A stretch of DNA of 24,802 bases from a virus, in the IMG/VR virus record IMGVR_UViG_3300007345_000260, positions 1-24,802 of that record; one strand, given 5' to 3'. Position numbers and translations under genes: made by a program. Shown one piece after another: positions 2,080 through 24,178 of this stretch; within the stretch, counting starts at the first letter, position 1, and every line of letters begins with the position of its first letter. The notes beneath the pieces were generated by a model. That model was not told where the DNA came from. It searched no databases and saw nothing but the letters and a program-made list of their open reading frames with translations.

Positions 2080-2100
2080 CCGCAACATTGTATTCTTACA

Positions 2101-2127
2101 AGAGGGAGCTGTATTGCTCCCTTTTTT
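2101..2127 (+). terminator. Rho-independent terminator after the lipoprotein gene
   Basis: GGGAGC (2104-2109) pairs with GCTCCC (2116-2121) around a 6-base loop, and six T residues follow at 2122-2127. The stem can extend by A-T and G-T pairs into 2101-2103. It lies 24 bases after the lipoprotein stop and ends the first gene block. Confidence 0.85.
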
Positions 2128-2142
2128 GTTTAAAAAATAATT

Positions 2143-4812: not shown

Positions 4813-5933
4813 TGACAGTTTCTTGGATAGGAGAAGTTATCTTTATCATAGGAGTAATAGCTCTTATTGCTATAGTTTGGTTTGTACAAGCTAAACTCTT
4901 AAAGAGGAAGACTACTATCTTAGATAGTATTAAACATTTTGCTAGTAATGTATCTAGTAACATTAATAGAAACTTCTTAGAAGTTATTAATAGTATATTC
5001 GTATTCGGTATTATAGTAGAAGCAACTACTGCTGCATGTGCAGTGTTTAATGTAGATTTCTTCTTACTTACTTTATCAAAATTCGTATTAATTGCTCTTA
5101 TCGAATGGGCTACTATGTCTTTTGGAATTTGGAATCTAAAAAGAATAGGAAAGTCTTGGGAAATGTTAGGATGTAACTTTAAAGTGAAAATGTCCAGACT
5201 TATTGTTTCTTTAGGTGTAATTACTTTACTCTCTTTAGGCAATTATTTTGGATATGTTACTCCTTATGCTATTTATATAGCTATAGGATTAGGTTTAATA
5301 TTTACTATAGTCCATATTACTACTAAGATGATTATGGTACATATTATTCCTGGAATTATCTTTCCAGTTATTTCAATTAGCTTTACTTTCTTATTAATTT
5401 ATTTCTCACTTGCTTCTATCGGAGCAGTGAATTTTGAAAGCCAAGAAAATATTAGAATCGGAGGCTTTATCTTAGATATTAATAAGTTAAGTCAGAGTCA
5501 GTTGACTATTACTTCTATTACTGTTATGTTAGCTTCTGTAGTATTAGGATTTACTTCCTTTTTCGGATATAATGCTAATACACAAGCAGACTTGGAATCG
5601 ACTATTTACGGTATCCAAAGATACATTAAGTCTTTTAGAGCTGCTTCTGCAGAACTTCTAAAAGCTTATGGAAGTAAAGAGTTCGATTTGGCTAGTTTCA
5701 TTAAAAAGATAGAAGCTAGTAAACACCGTAACTCTATTGAGTTATGGATTATTTCTGCTGAAGCGGAAAGATTAAAATTAATGAAAGCAGGATCTGAGCA
5801 TAAAGATATTACACCTGCTTATGTAAATTATTATAAAACAAAGTCTATTATGGATAGGTATATTCAAGAGACATTAGTAAAGATAAAAGAGGATTCAGAA
5901 TTTGATCCTGGAACATTTAAAATGAAAAAGTAA
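4812..5933 (+). CDS. Polytopic inner-membrane protein with helical cytoplasmic tail
   Basis: A 373-residue integral membrane protein of unknown family. A first membrane segment lies at about 8-26 and is followed by a basic stretch (KLLKRK). Further hydrophobic segments lie at about 57-77, 80-100, 133-152, 154-172, 176-206 and 231-250, giving about seven or eight passes. From about residue 255 the chain is soluble, helical and charged for about 115 residues. The start shares one base with the lipoprotein stop and its own stop shares one base with the following cyclotransferase-like gene. Candidate roles include remodelling the host membrane or blocking further infection; the sequence does not show a transporter motif. 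Confidence 0.8.
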   Translation: MTVSWIGEVIFIIGVIALIAIVWFVQAKLLKRKTTILDSIKHFASNVSSNINRNFLEVINSIFVFGIIVEATTAACAVFNVDFFLLTLSKFVLIALIEWATMSFGIWNLKRIGKSWEMLGCNFKVKMSRLIVSLGVITLLSLGNYFGYVTPYAIYIAIGLGLIFTIVHITTKMIMVHIIPGIIFPVISISFTFLLIYFSLASIGAVNFESQENIRIGGFILDINKLSQSQLTITSITVMLASVVLGFTSFFGYNANTQADLESTIYGIQRYIKSFRAASAELLKAYGSKEFDLASFIKKIEASKHRNSIELWIISAEAERLKLMKAGSEHKDITPAYVNYYKTKSIMDRYIQETLVKIKEDSEFDPGTFKMKK

Positions 5934-6436
5934 TGAAAAACAGAATAGCCGTATACGGCACATTGAAGAGAGGAAGAGGTAATTGGAATTATTTTCTAAA
6001 AGACTCTTCTACTTATGTAGGAACTGGTAGAACAGTAGTTAAAAGACATATTACTAACGGAGGAGGATTTCCTTTCGTATCCCAGACTCCTTACGAGAAT
6101 GGTGTGCATGTATTAGTCGAAATCTACTTAGTAGATGACGAAACATTAGAAAGTCTTAATAGTTTAGAAGGCTATTCTTACCCTAATTGTGCTTACAATC
6201 TCTATGAGAGGGGTGAGATAGAAGTTTACAGTAACTCTGAAGATAGAGTTGTAAACTGTACAATTTACTATAAAGATATTACTAGTCCTGCTAACTTCGG
6301 TAATACGTATATGGCTGAAGACGGGAATTGGGAAGACACTCAAACAGAAGATGAGGTGATGTCTCCCAATAACATTATTAATGAAAAATTAAATCAAACA
6401 TCAGAAACCTGGAAAAATATATTCATAAATGGATAA
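5933..6436 (+). CDS. AIG2/GGCT-like gamma-glutamylcyclotransferase
   Basis: A 167-residue protein of the gamma-glutamylcyclotransferase (AIG2/GGCT) fold. The signature VYGTLKRG lies at residues 7-14 with GNWNYF just after, GGFPFV at 44-49, then EIYLV (63-67) and LESLNSLEGY (72-81), where the conserved acidic residue of the family appears as Glu79. The family releases 5-oxoproline from gamma-glutamyl peptides or amines. In amidoligase gene clusters such enzymes are predicted to trim or remove gamma-glutamyl attachments. The last 30 residues or so are polar and extend beyond the core. It is tied by one-base and 8-base overlaps to its neighbours. A second, more divergent cyclotransferase lies one gene downstream. 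Confidence 0.85.
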   Translation: MKNRIAVYGTLKRGRGNWNYFLKDSSTYVGTGRTVVKRHITNGGGFPFVSQTPYENGVHVLVEIYLVDDETLESLNSLEGYSYPNCAYNLYERGEIEVYSNSEDRVVNCTIYYKDITSPANFGNTYMAEDGNWEDTQTEDEVMSPNNIINEKLNQTSETWKNIFING

Positions 6437-6908
6437 GAGAGAAAGAATAGTGAAGAAAAAATTAAGTAAAGAAGATAAGTATAATATTCTTTACGGGTTA
6501 TTATTAGCAGGAGCTGATATTACTGAAGAGGGTATAGTATATCAATGTGATCTTAGTCACATGATAGGCTGGTTAAAGACTTTCTTAGCTAAAATAGAAA
6601 TGAAATATACTCTAAAGAAGAATGTATTTCATATACCATTAGATATTTATTATTATGATAAATCTCCTAACGAATTATGCAGACAAATCCATCCTTATGG
6701 GTTTTTCTTATTATGGGCATTAAAATCAAATAGTCCATTAACTATTCCTTCTGGATATGACTTCTCTGAAGAATTCCAAGAAGCGATAGGAGTTCCTGTT
6801 ACTTATACAGTAGACAAAGAAGGGAACGGTTATATCACAATTACTTCAGACTGTATTGCACAGTTTTATTTTTTATTGTCGATAATTAAAATGTATCCAG
6901 TATATTAA
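6429..6908 (+). CDS. Hypothetical protein between two cyclotransferases
   Basis: A 159-residue protein with no family I recognise. A basic N-terminal 17 residues precede a hydrophobic helix with GLLLAGADI (residues 23-31). The middle is rich in Tyr and hydrophobics, with an IHPYGFFLLWAL segment (86-97), and the C-terminus again has a hydrophobic helix (about 145-155). The two helix-strand halves could be an internal repeat, but identity is low. It overlaps the upstream cyclotransferase by 8 bases and the downstream one by a single base (TAATG), so it is probably made together with them. Confidence 0.7.
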   Translation: MDKRERIVKKKLSKEDKYNILYGLLLAGADITEEGIVYQCDLSHMIGWLKTFLAKIEMKYTLKKNVFHIPLDIYYYDKSPNELCRQIHPYGFFLLWALKSNSPLTIPSGYDFSEEFQEAIGVPVTYTVDKEGNGYITITSDCIAQFYFLLSIIKMYPVY

Positions 6909-7597
6909 TGAGGCCACTTTCTATAAAAAAAGACATTATATTTGTAAATCTTTATAAAAAGTATTACGATAAAGATATTAGAAAAATGAAAGATGAGGAT
7001 ATAGTAAAATCTGATATAATTGGAATTTACAAAGACTATTCTAGTTGTCTTAATAGTGCTTTATCTTATTACACAAATATACCTGATTATTTCAATGTAA
7101 TCGGGTATGGTTCCTTGTTAAAGCTATCTGATGCTCAAAGAACTATGCCTTCTCTCGAAAAAGTGGAGTTGGGATATATTAAGGGATACAGACGCATTTT
7201 TAATTTATTAGGGACTACAGGTAATTATCTAAATGTTTATCATGTAGATTCTGATGAACCTATGCCTGTTGCCTATATGAAAATTAAGCAAGATGAAATT
7301 TATGATTTCGCATTTAGAGAAAGGAGATATCAATTAGAACTTACTACTCTTGATTCAGGAGAAGAAGCTTTAATATTATTAGCAAATGATTCTTGGATTG
7401 ATTATAATCAGCCTCCTATTCTTACTTATCTATTATTATGTATGACAGGTGCTCATGAATTAGGTGGGTATAAAGTACTTAATGAATTTATTAATACTAC
7501 TGATACTAATTTTGGACCTCTTGAGAGATGGTTAAAAACTAGTCAATTAGAAGGAGTTATTAATTACATAATCAGAAACGGACATACCAGTAGATAA
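6908..7597 (+). CDS. Second, longer GGCT/ChaC-like cyclotransferase
   Basis: A 229-residue protein with about 60 extra N-terminal residues before the cyclotransferase core. Core signatures are VIGYGSL (64-70), KGYRRIFNLLG (92-102) and FAFRERRYQLE (134-144), where Glu138 sits at the usual catalytic position of ChaC/GGCT-like enzymes (the F-RE--Y pattern). The fold releases 5-oxoproline from gamma-glutamyl compounds. It differs clearly from the enzyme at 5933 in length and motif spacing, so the pair is not a recent duplicate and may act on different substrates or steps. It ends exactly where the duplicated HPDCCGE module begins, with no gap. Confidence 0.8.
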   Translation: MRPLSIKKDIIFVNLYKKYYDKDIRKMKDEDIVKSDIIGIYKDYSSCLNSALSYYTNIPDYFNVIGYGSLLKLSDAQRTMPSLEKVELGYIKGYRRIFNLLGTTGNYLNVYHVDSDEPMPVAYMKIKQDEIYDFAFRERRYQLELTTLDSGEEALILLANDSWIDYNQPPILTYLLLCMTGAHELGGYKVLNEFINTTDTNFGPLERWLKTSQLEGVINYIIRNGHTSR

Positions 7598-8230
7598 ATG
7601 AACGCTCTATCTAAAGAATATTATATTATTAAAGCAGGAGATAATTATTTTCTTACTAAGAAATCAGAATATAATATCTCTGCAAACTTTAGCAATAACT
7701 TTAGAAACTTTATCATAGGAATAGATGATAAAAATAGGTTAATTTCTTATTATCTTTATAGGGAAGTTAACCCTGAAGAATATAAACGTTTTAAAACTGT
7801 AGAGTTAAAAACGGGATTTTTAGTAGAAATCTTTTATTCTGACTCTTCTTTCTTTAGAGTTAGTGACCCATTTACTAAGAAGTTAATAGTAAGGTTTAAC
7901 TATAACACTCATCCAGATTGCTGTGGAGAAAGTATTATTAAGTTAGACTACACTAGTATAGAGTCTTCTAAATTTAATTTAGATACTATTTTTGCTATAT
8001 GTTACCAATTAAAAGGAGATATAGGAAGTAACTTATCTTTCTTTCCTCAAGAGAACAGAAGTGAGGAAAATTACCTAAAAAATAGATTTAGTGATTTAGA
8101 ATTAAAAATATTTGAAAACAACTTTGTTACAAAGATTACTGATAGTTATTATGCAAAACATTACAAAGGCCCATATAAAAATTATTGGGACGTTGAAGAA
8201 TTCATAATAGATTTCTATAATGAAAGATAA
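7598..8230 (+). CDS. Module protein A, HPDCCGE motif (first copy)
   Basis: A 210-residue protein of unknown family. Its key feature is THPDCCGESII at residues 104-114, flanked by strand-like segments. The same HPDCCGE motif recurs in the protein at 8945, and both proteins also end with a related region containing (L/I)SF and KIT-D-YY. His, Asp, two adjacent Cys and Glu in one loop could bind metal or form a thiol active site; that is inference from residue chemistry. The gene starts directly after the second cyclotransferase stop and overlaps partner B by 11 bases. No signal peptide is visible. Confidence 0.75.
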   Translation: MNALSKEYYIIKAGDNYFLTKKSEYNISANFSNNFRNFIIGIDDKNRLISYYLYREVNPEEYKRFKTVELKTGFLVEIFYSDSSFFRVSDPFTKKLIVRFNYNTHPDCCGESIIKLDYTSIESSKFNLDTIFAICYQLKGDIGSNLSFFPQENRSEENYLKNRFSDLELKIFENNFVTKITDSYYAKHYKGPYKNYWDVEEFIIDFYNER

Positions 8231-8948
8231 AAAGTACGGTAAATATAGTATTAATATAAAAAACGTAGAATATGAATTTATCTACTTTAAGATCTCTAAT
8301 ATGAAATATGTCAAATCATTGAAAAATGATATATTAGAGATATTTCCTAGCTTAGATATGGATTACATTAAAAGTAATAATTACGCGTTAATCATAGGTG
8401 ACAATTGTGTAGAAATTTCTTATGTAGAGCAAGCTTATAAAATAGATTGTCCTTCAAGAGGATACTTATATAACAATATGAAATATATAGGAGGGTTTGA
8501 AACAGCCTTTTCTGAAAAAAGTAAAATAAGATATTATGAAAATTTATGTAATACGGATGTAAATCCTTATTTTATACCTACAACTATTGCTAAAGCAACA
8601 GAAAGAAGGGTTATAAGATTAACTGATTCAATAAACAAAGACGATTATAGAGATATTAACTTTTTCGTAGAGGGTAACAATGTACTCTGTTACAATTCTT
8701 CTGAGAGAGAATATTCGGATTATGTTATATTAAAATCCGTTTTAATTAATAGTTATTATAACGTTAATTATGCAGAAACTTTAAATATTATAGTACACTT
8801 ACCTGATTCTTCTGAAGATGATTATGATAAATTAAAAGAAGCGCATGTATTGTCTATGGGATTTGAAGATGTATATTCTTATTATAATTACAATTCTGAG
8901 AATCAAGTACATATTCTCAAAAAATCTTTAAAAGACATAGTTATATGA
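8220..8948 (+). CDS. Module protein B (first copy)
   Basis: A 242-residue protein of unknown family, paralogous to the protein at 9501. The C-terminal 90 residues share a clear pattern with the copy: GN-V--YNS-ER, then D--VL, then VHLP near 192-195, and a closing ILKKSL at 232-237. The strand-helix-strand order with an end in a hydrophobic strand loosely recalls acetyltransferase-like folds, but no acetyl-CoA loop is seen. It overlaps protein A upstream by 11 bases and the second A downstream by 4 bases. Always pairing with an A gene suggests the two products work together. Confidence 0.75.
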   Translation: MKDKKYGKYSINIKNVEYEFIYFKISNMKYVKSLKNDILEIFPSLDMDYIKSNNYALIIGDNCVEISYVEQAYKIDCPSRGYLYNNMKYIGGFETAFSEKSKIRYYENLCNTDVNPYFIPTTIAKATERRVIRLTDSINKDDYRDINFFVEGNNVLCYNSSEREYSDYVILKSVLINSYYNVNYAETLNIIVHLPDSSEDDYDKLKEAHVLSMGFEDVYSYYNYNSENQVHILKKSLKDIVI

Positions 8949-9508
8949 TCTATAAAGTAAACGGAAATTATTATAAAGAAGAATATCGTCAGGTAATAGG
9001 ACGAGAATTAATAGCTTTTCCTGTGAGAAAGCTAAACTTCAAAGAAGTTAAATTAAAAGATGGGTATATCTTTGTAAAATTAGATAACTCAGTAAGTTAT
9101 GTAAAGCCTTCTCAAGTAGAAGAGTCTGTTTTAATCGAGAAATATGTAATAAAAAGTAATGTTGATTCCAGTTACAATATTATTGAGAGTTTACATATAG
9201 TTACTATGCCAGATGGTAGACAAAATAAATTTATTATTCACCATCATCCTGATTGTTGTGGGGAAACTTTTATTAATCTAATGGACAGGCAAGATACTGA
9301 TGTAGAAACATTAGCTACTTTAATCCTGTTTAAACATAGTTCTCCAGGTTTAAATAATATTTCTTTTTACGAATCATTAGATATAAATTTTTCTTATATA
9401 GAAGATATTTTAAAATCTCTTTCTGAGTTACTGTCGTCTAAATATAATAAGATAAATTATAATAAGATAACAGATAATTACTATACAATATACATAGGAG
9501 ATGAATAA
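8945..9508 (+). CDS. Module protein A', HPDCCGE motif (second copy)
   Basis: A 187-residue paralogue of the protein at 7598. HHHPDCCGETFI occupies residues 99-110, in a strand context matching the first copy, and the C-terminus has NNISF (137-141) and NKITDNYY, both matched there. The N-terminal half has diverged strongly, so the duplication is old. The extra His residues before the motif strengthen a metal-binding reading, without proving it. It overlaps B upstream by ATGA and B' downstream by 8 bases. Function unknown. Confidence 0.75.
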   Translation: MIYKVNGNYYKEEYRQVIGRELIAFPVRKLNFKEVKLKDGYIFVKLDNSVSYVKPSQVEESVLIEKYVIKSNVDSSYNIIESLHIVTMPDGRQNKFIIHHHPDCCGETFINLMDRQDTDVETLATLILFKHSSPGLNNISFYESLDINFSYIEDILKSLSELLSSKYNKINYNKITDNYYTIYIGDE

Positions 9509-10136
9509 GAAAATATATGAACTTAAAGCAAACTGGCAAACAAAAGTATATAAATACTTAAATATCAATTTTGAAGGGAATCAATTATTGATAGCTTTAC
9601 AAAAAGAGATACCTGAGTGTATAAAAGATATTCCTAATTTATATGGAGTTTACTCTTTTTCAGATATTTTTTATAGTAAATTCTCTCATAACTTTTCCAT
9701 TAAGCTGAGTGATACTATGGAGGATGAAGAGATTAAAAAATTAATTCATGGAGAAGTTTGGAAGCTTATTAATTACGATTTTAGTATAATAAGTTATCCA
9801 GGAAATCTTGCTAATACTATTAAATACCGTTATAAAAAAGATAAAAAAGGGGAAAATCATTACGGCACTATTTCTTATTTTGGTAAAGGTAATACTGTCT
9901 TTCTATACAATTCTATGGAAAGAAGTAAATTAGATTTATTAGTATTATTTGTAATGTTGCTTAAACTAAATACACCTGCTATTAAGAATTTTGTAGTACA
10001 TCTTCCTAACAATGATTATGAGTATGAAGATACATACTGGAATCATATAGCAAATTTAGAATTTAATGTACTTTTTGAGTATGAAAATAATAACTCAGGA
10101 AATACTGTAGCTATTCTTAAAAAATCATTAGTATGA
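9501..10136 (+). CDS. Module protein B' (second copy)
   Basis: A 211-residue paralogue of the protein at 8220. The conserved C-terminal part includes KGNTVFLYNSMER (129-141), FVVHLPN (164-170) and VAILKKSL (203-210). The N-terminal parts no longer align by eye. Charged residues are spread through the middle (YKKDKKGENHYG). It completes the A-B-A'-B' run and overlaps its downstream neighbour by 4 bases. Function unknown; the constant order of A and B argues for a joint role. Confidence 0.75.
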   Translation: MNKKIYELKANWQTKVYKYLNINFEGNQLLIALQKEIPECIKDIPNLYGVYSFSDIFYSKFSHNFSIKLSDTMEDEEIKKLIHGEVWKLINYDFSIISYPGNLANTIKYRYKKDKKGENHYGTISYFGKGNTVFLYNSMERSKLDLLVLFVMLLKLNTPAIKNFVVHLPNNDYEYEDTYWNHIANLEFNVLFEYENNNSGNTVAILKKSLV

Positions 10137-10594
10137 AAAAATATAAATTAAAAGATAGGGAATATATATTACTAGATAATATTAGATCTTTAAATTTTAA
10201 CACTACGCAAGAAGCAGTAAGTGTTTATAGAGACAATTGTCAAGAGTTGTTTTCTATAGAAGAGTTCTTAAAAGGAATGTTAGGCTACGATAATGAATTA
10301 AATTTCTTTATAGGTCCAGATCAATGGGGACCAGTAGGTCAACAAGCTTGCTTTGTTGAGTTATGTATATTAGCAGATAGTGTTTACACTGTAGCAGATG
10401 AGTCAATAGTTGATTATCATAATTATTGGCTTAATTTAGAAATGCATAATTTTAATAATAAAGGGGTTTCCATTGAAGAGCCTCTATTTATAGAAATAAT
10501 GGGATATAAAGTTATGTTCTATTATGGATTAGAATTAGCCGATAAAGGCATTTTGGAACCTAAACCTACATTAGTCTTATGCAACACTTTCTAA
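10133..10594 (+). CDS. Acidic hypothetical protein
   Basis: A 153-residue soluble protein, rich in acidic and aromatic residues, without a recognised family. A notable loop is FIGPDQWGPVGQQACF (residues 59-74), and the C-terminus has the hydrophobic strand GYKVMFYYGLELAD. It starts at an ATGA junction with B' and its end overlaps the next gene by 16 bases, so it belongs to the same transcript as the duplicated module. No signal peptide or membrane segment. Confidence 0.7.
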   Translation: MKKYKLKDREYILLDNIRSLNFNTTQEAVSVYRDNCQELFSIEEFLKGMLGYDNELNFFIGPDQWGPVGQQACFVELCILADSVYTVADESIVDYHNYWLNLEMHNFNNKGVSIEEPLFIEIMGYKVMFYYGLELADKGILEPKPTLVLCNTF

Positions 10595-11136
10595 AAATAG
10601 CCATAATGTTACTACTTCCTTTAGCGGGAAATAGTCAATTATTAACATATTATGGTAGAGCTATTCTGCCTAAACAATCTACTACTAAAGAAGAAGCAGT
10701 AGAATTATCTAAAATTTTATTAAAAGAAGAAGGGGAAAAAGCTTTAAGCCAAGGTTATATTAAAGCAAAACCTGAAGAAATTATTAAATATGCTGAAATC
10801 TACATGAGAGTAGGCTATATAGATGAGATTAATACTAAACCTCTATTAGAGTACACTATAGAATTAGGATTAAAAAAGAAAGATATTTTTACTTTCTTAG
10901 AAACTGAGCACCCAGTAGCTTTTGTAGGTTACTCGGCTAGAATGGTAATATTAATGACAGAAGATTATCAATTTACTCAGATATTTATTAAAGATAATGA
11001 AGATCCTATTGTTATCTTAATAGATGGAAAACATTTAAGAAGATCTAATTACGTAAAGTATCCTTATTATATTCACTATACTGGATCAGGTGTAGGAGTT
11101 AATACTAAGCATACTGATAGAATTAAATTAAGATAA
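10579..11136 (+). CDS. Exported hypothetical protein
   Basis: A 185-residue protein with a cleavable signal peptide: MQHFLKIAIMLLLPLAGNSQ has a hydrophobic core and a small-residue (A-G-N-S) cleavage region before Gln20. The mature part has a helical region (about 37-105), then strands, with no Cys, and ends in a basic KHTDRIKLR tail. Export implies a periplasmic or surface role. It overlaps the preceding gene by 16 bases and is followed 5 bases later by a membrane protein. No family recognised. Confidence 0.7.
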   Translation: MQHFLKIAIMLLLPLAGNSQLLTYYGRAILPKQSTTKEEAVELSKILLKEEGEKALSQGYIKAKPEEIIKYAEIYMRVGYIDEINTKPLLEYTIELGLKKKDIFTFLETEHPVAFVGYSARMVILMTEDYQFTQIFIKDNEDPIVILIDGKHLRRSNYVKYPYYIHYTGSGVGVNTKHTDRIKLR

Positions 11137-11141
11137 ATACT

Positions 11142-11564
11142 ATGGAAGATCCAAGGCTAAAGCAGCCTAAAAACGATTTTCAAGTTTTTATGTTTATTAT
11201 ATTATTATTAGGGACTTTATTAGGAGGTTACTTGTTATTGTTAGACGCTTTTTACACTAAATTTACTGAACACTATAGAATAGTGTTTAAAATACCAGAA
11301 AAAAAAGATTACATGATATGGTTCCTAATACTAGGACTTTTAGACACTTTACTAGGAAATGCTTTTTATCCTTCTTCTATAAGAAGTGAAAGAAGTCATT
11401 CTATGTATTATATTTATAGACCTTTTAGAATTTTATTTTTTCCTAAAAGAATTTATCTAAATGAGAATTATAGATTTACTATATTATCTAAAGTAGATGC
11501 TCCTGTCTTTTTAGATCATGAAAAAGAAGAAATTAGAAGGATGTATAAATCCGGCAAAATATAG
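11142..11564 (+). CDS. Two-pass membrane protein
   Basis: A 140-residue protein with hydrophobic segments at about 14-36 and 57-78, separated by a charged 20-residue loop, and a basic, aromatic C-terminal half (about 79-140). The layout suggests both ends in the cytoplasm. It ends in TAG, 34 bases before the predicted ribozyme cleavage point, and is thus the last gene of the block that starts in the membrane/cyclotransferase region. Size and topology would permit a holin-like role, but the long soluble tail is unusual for one; function unknown. Confidence 0.7.
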   Translation: MEDPRLKQPKNDFQVFMFIILLLGTLLGGYLLLLDAFYTKFTEHYRIVFKIPEKKDYMIWFLILGLLDTLLGNAFYPSSIRSERSHSMYYIYRPFRILFFPKRIYLNENYRFTILSKVDAPVFLDHEKEEIRRMYKSGKI

Positions 11565-11576
11565 GTTGAAATTCCT

Positions 11577-11593
11577 CCCCGTTCTATACGGGG
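11577..11593 (+). other. GC-rich hairpin just upstream of the ribozyme
   Basis: CCCCG (11577-11581) pairs with CGGGG (11589-11593) around the 7-base loop TTCTATA. Stem and loop length match a tRNA T-arm, though position 57 of such a loop is normally a purine. AAAAT separates it from the predicted ribozyme cleavage site. No full cloverleaf surrounds it. In this AT-rich sequence a 5-bp pure GC stem is conspicuous; it may protect the 3' end left after cleavage. Confidence 0.6.
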
Positions 11594-11598
11594 AAAAT

Positions 11599-11648
11599 GG
11601 CATCATGACCAAGCCTCTACGTGGCGATGCTAGGTAACGCTAATTGGT
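11599..11648 (+). ncRNA. HDV-like self-cleaving ribozyme (minimal, theta-like)
   Basis: The 50 bases fold into the nested double pseudoknot of HDV-like ribozymes. P1 is GGCATC (11599-11604) with GATGCT (11626-11631), including a G-U wobble at the first base as in HDV. P2 is ACCAA (11608-11612) with TTGGT (11644-11648). P3 is GCC (11613-11615) with GGC (11623-11625), around loop L3 TCTACGT. P1.1 can form between C11617/T11618 and A11632/G11633, exactly where HDV has its two CG pairs. J4/2 reads GCTAA (11639-11643), identical to the antigenomic HDV strand, which makes C11640 the predicted catalytic cytosine. P4 is reduced to GTAAC. Cleavage is predicted between 11598 and 11599. P1 has 6 pairs rather than 7. 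Found by reading and untested by covariance search; it lies wholly between genes. Confidence 0.8.
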
Positions 11649-11675
11649 ATTTTTAATTAATTAAATAAAAACATT

Positions 11676-11777
11676 ATGGAAGAGCAAATATTAGAGCCAG
11701 AACAAGATAGTTTAACTGGCAAATTTGAAGAAAAAGGTAAACAAAGAAAAAATGCTAAGAACAGGAAAAGTAGGTAA
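11676..11777 (+). CDS. Very small hypothetical peptide (33 aa)
   Basis: An open frame from ATG 11676 to TAA 11775-11777 encodes a peptide with an acidic N-terminal half (MEEQILEPEQD) and a basic C-terminal half (KGKQRKNAKNRKSR). It is the first ATG after the ribozyme, 27 bases beyond its end, and overlaps the next gene by 26 bases. Position and charge pattern favour a real leader-like gene; its brevity leaves doubt. Confidence 0.5.
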   Translation: MEEQILEPEQDSLTGKFEEKGKQRKNAKNRKSR

Positions 11778-11940
11778 TGTACCTAAATCTGCTTGGATAG
11801 TAGTAGTAACTGTGAGAGAAACTAAAACACAGTTTGCTACTACTTATCATTATGATAAAAAAGTGCCTTATAAACAGGCTTTATTGGACGCTATGAGCGA
11901 ATTTCCAGAACCAGATTATTTAGTATTTGTAGGAGGATAA
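11752..11940 (+). CDS. Small hypothetical protein
   Basis: A 62-residue protein. ATG 11752 is preferred over an upstream in-frame TTG at 11725, because the longer version would overlap the preceding frame by 53 bases and adds only a lysine-rich stretch. The product is mostly beta-strand-like: SAWIVVVTVRETKTQFATTYHYD, then a helix, then DYLVFVGG at the C-terminus, a compact one-domain pattern. No recognised family. It lies 4 bases before the next gene. Confidence 0.6.
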   Translation: MLRTGKVGNVPKSAWIVVVTVRETKTQFATTYHYDKKVPYKQALLDAMSEFPEPDYLVFVGG

Positions 11941-11944
11941 TTAA

Positions 11945-12466
11945 ATGAAAGAAAAAGAGAATTTAATAAATTTACTAGAATCTTTAGATAAGATTATGGG
12001 ATTATTTCATAATAAAATAGTAGTTGTTGACGCTCCTATGTTATTATTATCAAAAGATAATAGAAAAAACTATCTTCTATGTAATTATGAACCAGAATAT
12101 GGTTTACATTTATTAAATAATTTACATGATTATGAAAATTATAATAAATCAGAAGAAGATAGATATGATTTATTTGAATTATTTAAAAAAGTTTTATTGC
12201 AAGATAAAGTTTATCTTAGCGATGAAGATTGGGAAAAAGTAGAACTTTTTGCTTTAGCTTTTGATAGAATTAAGTTTAAAGTTGCTACAATATCTAAATA
12301 TTCTATTACTAAATTTACTTTTGATGGTAAAACTTTAGTTATTTATGATGAAAATAATAACGCAATAAAATTAACTTTAGTCGAATTTCCAAACTCAACA
12401 CAGTTTGTAAAACTCGAAAAAGAATATTCAAAATCAAAGAAAGATGTTCAAAACAAAGGAATTTAA
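11945..12466 (+). CDS. Hypothetical protein
   Basis: A 173-residue soluble protein with an N-terminal helix, the hydrophobic strand NKIVVVDAPMLLL (residues 23-35), a long charged helical middle and a C-terminal beta region with FTFDGKTLVIYDENNNAIKLTLVEF (residues about 128-152). Codons are extremely AT-rich even for this window. It overlaps the next gene by 23 bases. No family recognised. Confidence 0.65.
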   Translation: MKEKENLINLLESLDKIMGLFHNKIVVVDAPMLLLSKDNRKNYLLCNYEPEYGLHLLNNLHDYENYNKSEEDRYDLFELFKKVLLQDKVYLSDEDWEKVELFALAFDRIKFKVATISKYSITKFTFDGKTLVIYDENNNAIKLTLVEFPNSTQFVKLEKEYSKSKKDVQNKGI

Positions 12467-12914
12467 ACCTCAGATTTCATTAGATTTATATGATATTACA
12501 GAAGAAAATATAAAAAATTTAGGATACTTTATGATTATCTTCTATGATAAAGAAAAAAAGATATATGAAATAGAAGATTTCGCTCAATATCATTCAAAAG
12601 ATGAAATACTACGATATTCTTATCCTTTATCTGATTTAAAACCTTATAAAGGAACTCTAGAAGAACTTATAAAGGAGACTAGAGAAAATGATTGGAGAAA
12701 GTTTTATATTATGAAAGGCAGTTTTACTGATAAAGATATAAAAAATGAAAAAAGACCTATTAAATATGATTTAAAAAATTGGTTTGAAAATCCAGAAATA
12801 TTAGAAAAATTCATTCTTCGTAAAACGACAGAGAATGAAATTACTCTTCTTACTAATGGTTTAGAATTAACTTTAAAAGATGATGGTACTTATATATTAT
12901 CTGATCCTAAATAA
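12444..12914 (+). CDS. Hypothetical protein
   Basis: A 156-residue charged protein. The N-terminal part is mixed strand and helix with YFMIIFYDKEKKIYEIEDF (residues 28-46), and the C-terminus ends in paired strands (NEITLLTNGLELTLKDDG). The C-terminal beta region faintly recalls the end of its upstream neighbour, but not enough to call them paralogues. A 72-base A/T-only stretch follows before the helicase, with no hairpin or clear promoter. No family recognised. Confidence 0.65.
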   Translation: MFKTKEFKPQISLDLYDITEENIKNLGYFMIIFYDKEKKIYEIEDFAQYHSKDEILRYSYPLSDLKPYKGTLEELIKETRENDWRKFYIMKGSFTDKDIKNEKRPIKYDLKNWFENPEILEKFILRKTTENEITLLTNGLELTLKDDGTYILSDPK

Positions 12915-18864: not shown

Positions 18865-18878
18865 TTTAAGTGTTTTAG

Positions 18879-18909
18879 CCCCTACTATTAATTTAGTAGG
18901 GGTTTTTTT
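18879..18909 (+). terminator. Strong rho-independent terminator ending the replication block
   Basis: CCCCTACTA (18879-18887) pairs perfectly with TAGTAGGGG (18894-18902) around a 6-base loop, and seven T residues follow (18903-18909). It lies 14 bases after the candidate SSB gene and is the strongest terminator in the window. Confidence 0.95.
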
Positions 18910-18916
18910 GTATATA

Positions 18917-18924
18917 TAATTTTG
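18917..18924 (+). promoter_or_regulatory. Possible Bacteroidetes-type -7 promoter element
   Basis: TAATTTTG matches the Bacteroidetes -7 consensus TAnnTTTG. It sits between the terminator and the amidoligase ATG at 18932, where a new transcript must start if termination is efficient. No TTTG lies at the usual -33 distance, and the start point would fall almost on the ATG, implying a near-leaderless message. AT-rich DNA makes chance matches easy. Confidence 0.3.
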
Positions 18925-18931
18925 TATAGTA

Positions 18932-19663
18932 ATGAATATCACTATCGGAACAGATCCAGAATTTTTTGTAGTAGATACTATGGGAAAATATATTCCCCCT
19001 AAATTTGTGACTAAAGGAACTAAGAAAATTCCTCAAAGATACTCAAAAGGGGTGATTCATCAAGATGCTGCTGCTGTAGAATTTAGCATTCTTCCTTGCG
19101 ATAATGCAGAAGACTTTAGTGCTAATATCCAAGAAGCATTAGATAGTATTTTTATTAATCCTTATTTTAAAATGTATCCTTATACATCTATAAAATTAGA
19201 TGATCAAATTATTTCAATGGATTCTTCTTTATCAGAAGTAGGATGCCAACCTGATTATAAATTTATTGAAAGTAAAAGGGTAAAAAGAAAATTAACTTAT
19301 AACAATACTAATTGGAGAATGGCAGGAGGTCATATTCATATTGGTATAGGATTTATTAAAAGTGATTCTTTATTAGAGCAAATTATTACAGACTTAGATA
19401 ATAAATTTATGTCTTGGTATAGAGAGCAAGATTTTTATCATGCTGAGACTGAGGCAATTAGAGAAGCACATTATGGAGATAATGGAGTATTTAGACAAAA
19501 GAAATACGGATTAGAATACAGAACTCCTTCTATGGCTTGGATTAAAACTCATGAAGATAGAGTTAATGTATTTAATAAAATTTATGAAATTGTAAAACCT
19601 TACTCATGTATAGTTTCGGAGGAGAAGGAAAAGAGAGATATTGCTACTACGAGAATATCTTAG
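18932..19663 (+). CDS. Glutamine-synthetase-like amidoligase (COOH-NH2 ligase type 2)
   Basis: A 243-residue enzyme of the phage amidoligase family (phiEco32-like COOH-NH2 ligase type 2), which uses a glutamine-synthetase-like fold to join a carboxyl to an amine with ATP. Signatures in order are GTDPEFF (6-12, metal-binding Glu10), HQDAAAVEFS (43-52, with Asp45 and Glu50), GGHIHIG (132-138) and LEYRTPSMAW (194-203). All expected acidic and His residues are present. The family is predicted to make peptide or amide links on metabolites or proteins. It is the first gene after the terminator, and its last 58 bases overlap the primase gene, so its expression is coupled to replication genes. Confidence 0.9.
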   Translation: MNITIGTDPEFFVVDTMGKYIPPKFVTKGTKKIPQRYSKGVIHQDAAAVEFSILPCDNAEDFSANIQEALDSIFINPYFKMYPYTSIKLDDQIISMDSSLSEVGCQPDYKFIESKRVKRKLTYNNTNWRMAGGHIHIGIGFIKSDSLLEQIITDLDNKFMSWYREQDFYHAETEAIREAHYGDNGVFRQKKYGLEYRTPSMAWIKTHEDRVNVFNKIYEIVKPYSCIVSEEKEKRDIATTRIS

Positions 19664-21271: not shown

Positions 21272-21567
21272 TAGATCATAAAAATTATAAAAAATATCCT
21301 AGAGATTTTAAAAAGAATTTTAAAAAAATATTTAAGATATCTTTTATATCCTCTGATGGAATTATTATTACTAGTGATGATGATATTAACTTAGAATATC
21401 TAAAACTATTTGATACTTTCTATGAAGTATTTATACAGTTAAGATCTAGAAGATCTAATAATTTAGATTTAAATTGGAATGATTTCTGTCAGTTTATTTA
21501 TGATTTAAACACTAATTTTTATTATTTCATTGAAGAGAAAAAATGCGGGATATGCATAAACCGTTAA
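21259..21567 (+). CDS. Small hypothetical protein
   Basis: A 102-residue protein with a strongly basic N-terminus (KNYKKYPRDFKKNFKKIFK, residues 8-26), an acidic DDDIN turn, and a helical aromatic C-terminal half. Two Cys form a CGIC pair near the end (residues 97-100), overlapping the next gene's start by 25 bases. It lies between UDG and the ATP-grasp ligase in a continuous overlapping run. No family recognised. Confidence 0.6.
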   Translation: MAQIIDHKNYKKYPRDFKKNFKKIFKISFISSDGIIITSDDDINLEYLKLFDTFYEVFIQLRSRRSNNLDLNWNDFCQFIYDLNTNFYYFIEEKKCGICINR

Positions 21568-22367
21568 GAAGAAGAGCAAGAGGATATTTTGGTATAACAC
21601 AGCCATCTTATTCTAAATTAACTAGAGACTTTCCTGCTAAGAAGATTAGACAGTTGACTGGAGGACACTCTAAAGTCTTATTAAGATTTGGTTATTCTGG
21701 AAATTTTCCTGTTACAGATGATGAAGGTTATATCTTTGTAAACAGCAGAGAAAGTATTAATATTGCTAAGAACAAAAGCAAGACTAAAGAGTTGCTTAAA
21801 GAATTAGGAATACCTACCCCTAATTGGGCTATTTTAAGCGATTTAAGAGACTTTTATTCTTTACGCTTCCCTTTATATTCTAAAACATTTTACGGCTCTA
21901 GAGGGCGTGGAATGGTCTTTATAGAAAATGAAGAAAAGCTTAAAGAACATTACGAAAACCATGACTCTTCAATAGGTAGAATTATAGAAGAGAGATGTAA
22001 TTATGTTAGAGAATATGGGATTCATGTTTCTAGTGCTAGTGGTATTTTTCATGCTGTCAGAAAGATGTTGAAATCTGAAGCAGAAGATAGATGGTTTAGA
22101 AATAGTAATAACTGTGTTTTCTATTTAGAAGACAATGAACATTTTAACAAACCAGAATGCTGGGAAGAGATAGAAACTCAATTACTGAGATTTATGGATA
22201 AAACTGGGTTAGATATAGGAAGATTCGATGTCAAAGTAAATAACTCTGGTAAATTATTTAGTGTATTAGAGGTTAATACTTCTCCTTCTATTGAAGGAGA
22301 AATAGTTTATAATAAATACAAAAGAGAACTGGAAAAAATAATAATATGTGCGGCATCGCAGGTATAA
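21543..22367 (+). CDS. RimK-like ATP-grasp ligase
   Basis: A 274-residue ATP-grasp ligase. Visible elements are the NKSKTKELLKELGIPTPNW segment (77-95), YSKTFYGSRGRGMVFI (112-127, ATP-binding Lys114 and the Gly-rich loop), IIEERCNYVREYGIHV (147-162), GRFDVKV (226-232) and EVNTSPSIEG (243-252, metal-binding Glu243 and Asn245). These match RimK/glutamate-ligase types, which join amino acids or peptides to a carboxyl through an acyl phosphate. The first 20 residues are basic. It overlaps the GAT-II gene by 22 bases, so both are probably made together. The substrate is not shown by the sequence. Confidence 0.9.
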   Translation: MRDMHKPLRRRARGYFGITQPSYSKLTRDFPAKKIRQLTGGHSKVLLRFGYSGNFPVTDDEGYIFVNSRESINIAKNKSKTKELLKELGIPTPNWAILSDLRDFYSLRFPLYSKTFYGSRGRGMVFIENEEKLKEHYENHDSSIGRIIEERCNYVREYGIHVSSASGIFHAVRKMLKSEAEDRWFRNSNNCVFYLEDNEHFNKPECWEEIETQLLRFMDKTGLDIGRFDVKVNNSGKLFSVLEVNTSPSIEGEIVYNKYKRELEKIIICAASQV

Positions 22368-24178
22368 TAAAAAATGCTAATTTAAACGAATTAGATATTT
22401 ATAAAGGTTATTTATTATGGATTAATATGGCAGAGAGAGGCAGAACAGCACATGGCTGTTCTGTCATTGATACTTCTGAAAATGTTATTAATTATTATAA
22501 ATGCGGATCTGAAAATAAAGAACCTAAAAAGAGTTCTGAAAATGATGAAGCATTACAAATGTTAGGTAAATGTGTTAACTCTCTTTCTGATCCTAGGATT
22601 ATGTTTGTTCATGATAGAGCAGCTTCTACTTTTGCAGGTGGAACGAATAACAGAGAAAACACTCAACCTTTAATAGTACCTTTTAATGATGAAGATCATA
22701 TCTCTTTAATGCATAATGGTACTATCCATAACATGGAAGATATTTATTTTAAACAAACTGGAAAAAATCCAGATCCCAAATTATCTGATTCTTATTTAGC
22801 AGCTCTCCTTTTCCAAGAAGAGAAATATGATTGGTTAGCTAATTATATAGGTGCTGCTTCTTTAGTGTGGTATAATACTGCTACAAAGAAAGTTTATATG
22901 TGGAGAGGGCAATCTCCAGATTATCAAGACGATAAACTTTTGTCTGAAGAAAGGCCACTTTATTATGTTACAAAAAAAGATAGGATAGAGTTTGCTTCTA
23001 CTATAGAAGCATTATTTAACACTGATCTAGATCCTGATTTAGATTCTATACTTAGTTTACCAGCTAATACTTTATTTAGTGTTAATTTGGAAAATTTAGA
23101 GTTAGAAGAGATTGTAAAATTAGACAGAAGTAAAGCTCATCAAAAAGAGAGCTATCATCATGGAAGTTATGGAGGTTATGGTGGATATGGTGGATATGGC
23201 AGCCAGAATAGATATAACCCTTATCAAGGAATGAGAAGACCTACTCAGAATAAACCTTCCTTACCTAAAAAAGTACAACCTTTAGATCATAATGCATATT
23301 TAAAAAGCCAAGACTTAGGAGGACTTTTTGAAGCTATTCCCTTTTGTATTAATTATCCTGATAACTATAATGATATTATTTCTAGATTACCTGTTGAAGC
23401 TGTTTATATGACAGAATTTAAAAGTAATTTAAGAGATTCTAAAATTAATTTGTTTGCAGGTCTATATTACAATAATGGAGGTTTGATGCATTCTCAATTT
23501 CCTGTTTACTCTTCTTTAGCTGATTATGATAACTTCCCTCCTATAGCAGACAATTATTTAAATATTCCTTATCTAGTAAGTAATGTTACAAGTAATGTAC
23601 TTAGTTTTAAATTCAAAAAAGAGCTAGTAGAAGAGTATTTCTGGAAGGGTCTTCTATGCAAAGATAAAGAAAGCTTCTTAAAATTAGAATACTTAGTAAA
23701 TAATAATAAATCTACTCAAGTTATTACAGCATTAGAGTTATCTACTTATTTGAAATGTCCTACTTTTTACGGAGTAATCATTGATAATAATAGAGTTAAC
23801 TTTACTGTGTCAGATACTTACTATAAAGGTATGTTATTAAGTAGTCATTTTAAAAACTATATAGAAATATTTCCTTATACTAACATTAATTATAATTACC
23901 AGAACAGAAGTCTTACTAACAATTATTATAATTATTGCTTAGCTACTTTCTTGAGAGGCATATTTAACGGTGTATTTAGTATGAGAAATTATGAAGAATT
24001 AATTTCCCCTATTAACGTAGCAGGTTTAGATAACATATTATATGGAAAATACTCTTTATCTGATTTAAAATCTAAGATAGCAGAAAAAATGAAATCATTA
24101 GATTCTAGTATATCTATAAAGGATACTAAAATCAAACTTCATAAAATATTTTTAGGCAATGAGAGCACCGAGAAATAA
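22346..24178 (+). CDS. Class II glutamine amidotransferase fused to an unknown C-terminal domain
   Basis: A 610-residue protein. The N-terminal Ntn-hydrolase domain (about 1-255) begins MCGIAGI, so Cys2 becomes the nucleophile after Met removal. FVHDRAAST (87-95), LMHNGTIHN (121-129, oxyanion Asn124/Gly125) and DSYLAALL (148-155) complete the GAT-II site, which releases ammonia from glutamine. A flexible linker (about 262-312) contains a Tyr-Gly-Gly repeat and then Pro/Lys-rich sequence. The last 300 residues form a domain I do not recognise; it is not an asparagine synthetase or a sugar isomerase. Ammonia could feed a ligase such as the neighbouring ATP-grasp enzyme; alternatively the domain cleaves gamma-glutamyl amides. 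Confidence 0.9.
   Translation: MCGIAGIIKNANLNELDIYKGYLLWINMAERGRTAHGCSVIDTSENVINYYKCGSENKEPKKSSENDEALQMLGKCVNSLSDPRIMFVHDRAASTFAGGTNNRENTQPLIVPFNDEDHISLMHNGTIHNMEDIYFKQTGKNPDPKLSDSYLAALLFQEEKYDWLANYIGAASLVWYNTATKKVYMWRGQSPDYQDDKLLSEERPLYYVTKKDRIEFASTIEALFNTDLDPDLDSILSLPANTLFSVNLENLELEEIVKLDRSKAHQKESYHHGSYGGYGGYGGYGSQNRYNPYQGMRRPTQNKPSLPKKVQPLDHNAYLKSQDLGGLFEAIPFCINYPDNYNDIISRLPVEAVYMTEFKSNLRDSKINLFAGLYYNNGGLMHSQFPVYSSLADYDNFPPIADNYLNIPYLVSNVTSNVLSFKFKKELVEEYFWKGLLCKDKESFLKLEYLVNNNKSTQVITALELSTYLKCPTFYGVIIDNNRVNFTVSDTYYKGMLLSSHFKNYIEIFPYTNINYNYQNRSLTNNYYNYCLATFLRGIFNGVFSMRNYEELISPINVAGLDNILYGKYSLSDLKSKIAEKMKSLDSSISIKDTKIKLHKIFLGNESTEK
23168..23200 (+). repeat. In-frame Tyr-Gly-Gly repeat in the GAT-II linker
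   Basis: Three and two-thirds copies of a 9-base TATGGNGGN unit encode YGG-YGG-YGG-YG (residues 275-285). Third bases vary between copies, so slippage is not recent or is limited. It forms a flexible aromatic-glycine linker between the amidotransferase and the C-terminal domain. Confidence 0.8.

Follow-up and report, generated by a model that had tools for sequence, protein, structure and literature searches.

A predicted HDV-like ribozyme directly behind a strong hairpin in a crAss-like phage, and its probable role in mRNA 3'-end formation

Results

The locus and its phage

The DNA analyzed here (the window) is the whole stretch of 24,802 nucleotides in IMG/VR record IMGVR_UViG_3300007345_000260, a 24.8-kb viral contig whose main genes all lie on the plus strand and use the standard code, the latter as the initial annotation had stated. 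Judged by its genes, the phage is Crassvirales-like (crAss-like): its DNA polymerase, SNF2-type helicase, DnaB-like helicase, Sak4, and primase have their matches in Crassvirales (for the SNF2-type helicase, Cellulophaga phage phi14:2 at 40%), and the gene order resembles that of cr128_1. The same genes place the locus in a Caudoviricetes phage genome, a feature by which theta ribozymes are recognized. Elsewhere in the window, five further genes (5933–6436, 6908–7597, 18932–19663, 21543–22367, and 22346–24178) occur in one phage segment; two are gamma-glutamyl-cyclotransferase-like, and the others are an amidoligase (COOH.NH2 ligase), a ribosomal-S6-glutaminyl-transferase-like gene, and a glutamine amidotransferase, the set being possibly a peptide or amino acid ligation cassette.

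At 160 nt, the widest gap between genes in the window follows a gene (11142–11564) for a 140-aa protein with two hydrophobic stretches and no PHROG or Pfam match. The gap is occupied by a candidate P4-less HDV-like self-cleaving ribozyme (11599–11648), which lies in sense with both neighboring genes and occurs once in the record; the upstream stop codon stands 34 nt ahead of the predicted cut. Directly downstream, 27 nt past P2 of the ribozyme, starts a candidate 33-aa ORF (11676–11777), and the next gene is a 62-aa ORF (11752–11940) whose ATG at 11752 lies within an open frame of 11725–11940. Upstream of the ribozyme on the same strand we found a 7-bp hairpin with a 5-nt loop (UCCCCGU-UCUAU-ACGGGGA, 11576–11594), overlooked in the initial annotation, which ends 4 nt ahead of the predicted cut, with AAAU in between. 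Its stability is −12.6 kcal/mol (z −3.3 to −3.4), a value reached by 0 of 200 shuffles. Ordinary terminators in the window (2080–2142 and 18865–18931) carry U-tracts after their stems, unlike the 11576 hairpin, which has none and by its sequence is not a normal terminator.

Architecture of the candidate ribozyme

The 50 bases of the candidate read, block by block, GGCATC (P1), ATG (J1/2), ACCAA (P2), GCC (P3), TCTACGT (L3), GGC (P3'), GATGCT (P1'), AGGTAACG (J1/4 and linker), CTAA (J4/2), and TTGGT (P2'). In the RNA, P1 joins 11599–11604 (GGCAUC) to 11626–11631 (GAUGCU) and places a G11599·U11631 wobble at the predicted cut, this G1·U being present in 22 of the 26 sequences aligned below. J1/2 spans 11605–11607, and P2 joins 11608–11612 (ACCAA) to 11644–11648 (UUGGU). 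P3 and L3 fill 11613–11625, with a GCC/GGC stem (11613–11615/11623–11625) closed by the loop UCUACGU (11616–11622), and P1.1 consists of C11617–G11633 and U11618–A11632. J1/4 and the linker AGGUAACG (11632–11639) stand where P4 would be, and J4/2 (CUAA, 11640–11643) opens with the predicted catalytic C11640. This is the nested double pseudoknot of the general HDV fold (P1, P2, P3, and P1.1, with the catalytic C opening J4/2), from which we infer cleavage at U11598|G11599. A C occupies the catalytic position in every relative used, and descriptor variants with A or G at that position had no match at 11599–11648. The 50-mer can also adopt a different, nested fold (−11.5 kcal/mol) that employs the same P2 strands.

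On rereading, the elements and coordinates of the initial annotation (P1, P2, P3, P1.1, and C11640) proved exact to the base. That annotation had also described a P4 shrunken to GTAAC. The 8-nt linker AGGUAACG, however, matches GGGUAACG/GGGUAAUG of P4-less viral ribozymes, so that P4 is better read as absent; a missing P4 or short linker is also a mark of minimal drz/theta ribozymes.

Chance expectation and covariance models

A mechanical HDV descriptor, scanned over both strands, had 11599–11648 as its sole match in the window. A loose descriptor gave 119 matches in 300 shuffles (~0.4 per shuffled window), and helices alone are therefore weak evidence. A strict descriptor, demanding an HDV-type L3, a GC-rich P3, P1.1, and a J4/2 with AA, recovered 11599–11648, had 0 matches in 1,500 dinucleotide shuffles of the window, and matched only known HDV-F-prausnitzii (RF02682) ribozymes across 2.7 Mb of other loci. 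Since it was composed after the candidate had been seen, independent models carry more weight.

The initial annotation had proposed a covariance-model search as a check. Rfam RF02682 aligns from the first to the last position of the candidate, with 17.3 bits (E 0.0104 for the window), far under its gathering threshold of 44. Two custom models built without the window recognized the candidate: a P4-trimmed model from nine RF02682-type ribozymes gave 24.4 bits (E 2.9e-5) and a model from 25 ribozymes of other viral contigs gave 42.4 bits (E 1.1e-8), both E-values being rough because the models were only briefly calibrated. The latter score falls inside the range of 31–62 bits of most viral members. 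As far as the sequence goes, the fold at 11599–11648 is not due to chance, and we consider it very probably an active HDV-like ribozyme.

BLASTN of the 50-mer and of drz-Mtgn-1 against phages gave no match. Exact-core scans with L3 UCUACGU returned only cellular RF02682 ribozymes and chance matches, a scan with a drz-Mtgn-1-like core returned three matches, all chance, and plasmid matches were confined to the AT-rich leader. A 27-bit match to model R1 in a Spirosoma genome was taken as a false positive because it lacks P3/L3. For the same reason, we did not accept as an HDV fold CAGGGAACGCTAA, a weak ribozyme-model match in cr128_1 (L058), where it lies in a gene-free stretch of ~1.2 kb (940–2131) past two tRNA-Arg genes. 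Model R2, run with strict filters and without a positive control, found no ribozyme in 395 genomes from a single bacterial phylum, the one to which a Tannerellaceae genome belongs.

Viral relatives and covariation

A final pattern scan (P3 GCC/GGC, L3 TCYNCGT, RR, and CTAA) returned 75 viral stretches; 30 of these places also form P1, P2, and P1.1 by the descriptor, and 34 by a relaxed descriptor. In these relatives P1 is 6 or 7 bp long, G1 mostly faces a T, and the linker has 8 or 10 nt. We aligned 25 of them, the ribozymes behind the 42.4-bit model, with the window after trimming all rows to one register; the scan pattern and the window have P3 and part of L3 in common. In these 26 sequences, 10 of the 11 pairs of P1 and P2 show changes on both sides, and the covariation score is 0.84, as against 0.17 for shuffled and at most 0.11 for slid alignments. 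Up to four pair types occur per position, and both sides are changed in 134 cells. Although 99% of cells are paired, this is partly by construction because P1 and P2 pairing served as a selection criterion; the diversity of the pairs, unlike the 99%, is not a product of selection. What the window adds is a double change in P1.1, from C–G to U–A relative to the 25 viral relatives. Hand-registered composites had earlier given both-sided changes at 14 of 16 pairs, in a comparison that involved RF02682-type sequences and drz-Mtgn-1. The compensatory changes that the initial annotation had suggested looking for are therefore seen in P1 and P2 among ribozymes of other viral contigs, and its HDV-like, theta-like reading is supported by these relatives and their covariation.

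We also searched the phage's own lineage. Helicase alignment led to 73 crAss-like loci, in which neither the descriptor nor the models found the ribozyme and which hold no homologs of the genes at 7598–12914. The top score of the 25-ribozyme model in 77 crAss-like loci (927 kb) was 16.2 bits, and the weaker model R1 found the ribozyme in none of 42 whole records. Among viral contigs, none encodes a relative of the upstream 140-aa protein, and the helicase has no close relative. The ribozyme is thus not conserved in the lineage, and since the flanking genes have no homologs in relatives that also lack the ribozyme, it looks like a local gain.

Recurrence of the hairpin and tRNA or tmRNA contexts

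The pairing of a hairpin with a ribozyme behind it is seen again in unrelated viral genomes, at ribozymes not adjoining tRNAs, a recurrence likewise overlooked in the initial annotation. We describe the pair as a strong hairpin ending 0–6 nt ahead of the cut, the gap in the window being 4 nt. With perfect stems of 6 bp or longer as the test, and a score threshold fixed only after the data were viewed, a strong hairpin ends 0–5 nt ahead of the cut at 13 of 25 other distinct ribozymes outside tRNA/tmRNA contexts, versus 5.8% of control sites placed 30–110 nt past genes in the same loci (p ~2e-10). Two ribozymes that seemed to follow tRNAs missed by ARAGORN (L171 and L213) had been moved to the tRNA group. 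Perfect hairpins are missing at the other 12, a few of which have imperfect ones (L163, L199, and L211), and some of the 12 may follow tRNAs overlooked by ARAGORN. L162 and L179, which have neither a perfect hairpin nor a recognized tRNA, share AACGAAGCCC directly 5' of the cut (within 20 nt). In four loci, hairpin and ribozyme lie 35–101 nt past the gene for a major head protein or its homolog (phrog_11589 in L165, L176, and L190; a 31%-identical homolog in L177); for the L176 protein, cultured phages offered no match. The recurrence of the pair in unrelated viral genomes suggests that some phages trim message ends by ribozyme.

A further 13 or 14 viral relatives abut tRNA or tmRNA 3' ends. 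At L217 (3227–3719, IMGVR_UViG_3300001480_000369) and L201 (4729–4367, minus strand, IMGVR_UViG_3300001484_000542), a P4-less HDV-like ribozyme begins exactly past the encoded CCA of a phage tmRNA gene, which suggests that the ribozyme processes the tmRNA 3' end. The window ribozyme is not of the tRNA subgroup of theta ribozymes, defined by a cut at most 5 nt from a tRNA 3' end. ARAGORN predicted no tRNA by default and only junk at a lowered threshold, and Rfam found none in 11450–11800 even at an E-value of 10, in agreement with the initial annotation.

Discussion

We propose that hairpin and ribozyme together form a device for mRNA 3'-end formation, which is probably the main role of the ribozyme. 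The polymerase would transcribe the upstream gene, then the 7-bp hairpin, and then the 50-nt HDV-like ribozyme, which would fold cotranscriptionally and cut just 5' of its first base, using C11640 as general acid together with a bound Mg2+. The upstream message would be left with a stable hairpin, AAAU, and a 2',3'-cyclic phosphate, a 3' end that would look like the hairpin left by intrinsic termination and be shielded from 3' exonucleases. Transcription would go on, and the downstream RNA would begin with the folded ribozyme, bearing a 5'-OH, ahead of the small genes (11676 onward), which would remain in the same transcription unit; self-cleavage would stand in for a U-tract terminator. We infer cleavage and its position, the shielding of the 3' end, and any influence on expression from the HDV mechanism. 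That a polycistronic RNA is split between 11142–11564 and the downstream small genes is plausible, and the abutting hairpin and its recurrence speak for a role in making the 3' end of the upstream message, beyond mere separation of two messages.

The ribozyme might instead be genuine but serve chiefly to separate the downstream genes, its 5'-OH, ribozyme-bearing start tuning their stability or translation while the hairpin is incidental. Such a role would suit its sense orientation with both genes, the AT-rich leader and small ORFs that follow from 11676, and the 12 of 25 non-tRNA relatives devoid of a perfect hairpin. It is nevertheless unlikely, since a hairpin at 13 of 25 sites against 5.8% makes an incidental hairpin improbable for the class, and the upstream neighbor in several relatives is the major head protein gene. 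Less probable again is a dead or fortuitous HDV-like fold at what is an ordinary terminator or a DNA/protein-binding element. Every position with a catalytic or tertiary role is intact, the double change in P1.1 is compensatory, the model built without the window yields E 1.1e-8, and a U-tract for termination is lacking, against which stand the locus being kept in no close relative, its single occurrence in the record, and the nested alternative fold. We reject as highly improbable a tRNA-processing theta ribozyme whose tRNA was lost or degenerated, leaving the hairpin as a T-arm remnant, because, despite a loop (UUCUAUA within CCCCG/CGGGG) that is T-loop-like at first sight and the relatives abutting tRNA/tmRNA 3' ends, neither ARAGORN nor Rfam gives a tRNA, the 5 nt from the 5-bp stem to the cut are too short for an acceptor strand, and the relatives' hairpins are longer (6–11 bp) and not T-arm-like.

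If hairpin and ribozyme do form mRNA 3' ends, the major-head-protein message, among others, would receive a defined, stabilized 3' end with downstream transcription not stopped. The hairpin rule offers a testable role, in message 3' ends, for roughly half of the sampled non-tRNA ribozymes. More tentatively, such a device could be widespread among phages, with an HDV-like ribozyme taking the place of the terminator U-tract and trimming just behind a hairpin, tRNA, or tmRNA. The tRNA, tmRNA, and mRNA cases would be united by a ribozyme cutting right behind a stable RNA structure, and a Crassvirales-like phage would gain a ribozyme in a setting that involves neither tRNAs nor recoding.

Minimal HDV-like/theta ribozymes in phages, isolated ones included, have already been published, with 526 non-tRNA occurrences given without function (Kienbeck et al. 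2024, PMC10879173). As far as the main text of that paper goes, it makes no mention of hairpins, terminators, or tmRNA, and what appears new relative to it is the association with hairpins, the occurrence at tmRNAs, and the position behind major-head-protein genes. The window ribozyme resembles the theta/minimal drz ribozymes described there (drz-Mtgn-1) in its phage-encoded, P4-less HDV fold of 50–60 nt, 8-nt linker, G1·U at the cut, and catalytic C in J4/2. It differs from theta ribozymes by a hairpin in place of the adjoining tRNA, the standard code, and a core of UCUACGU/AGG with a U–A pair in P1.1 rather than UCCNCGU/GG or UUCCCGU/GA. With HDV-F-prausnitzii (RF02682) it shares an identical L3 (UCUACGU), AGGYAAC in J1/4, GCUAA at J4/2, and equal P1.1 pairs, whereas those ribozymes have a 7-bp P1 and a true P4 hairpin and come from Faecalibacterium-type genomes; the window ribozyme has only the linker in place of P4 and stays below the family's gathering score (17.3 versus 44). 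The tRNA/tmRNA-adjacent P4-less viral ribozymes (L161, L182, L188, L201, L217, and others) have the same core and cut-site geometry, but the stable structure 5' of them is the tRNA or tmRNA whose 3' end forms, where the window has a simple hairpin. Finally, the proposed device resembles an intrinsic (Rho-independent) terminator in leaving a message that ends in a stable GC hairpin, but it has no U-tract, and the end would come from RNA self-cleavage, so that transcription need not stop.
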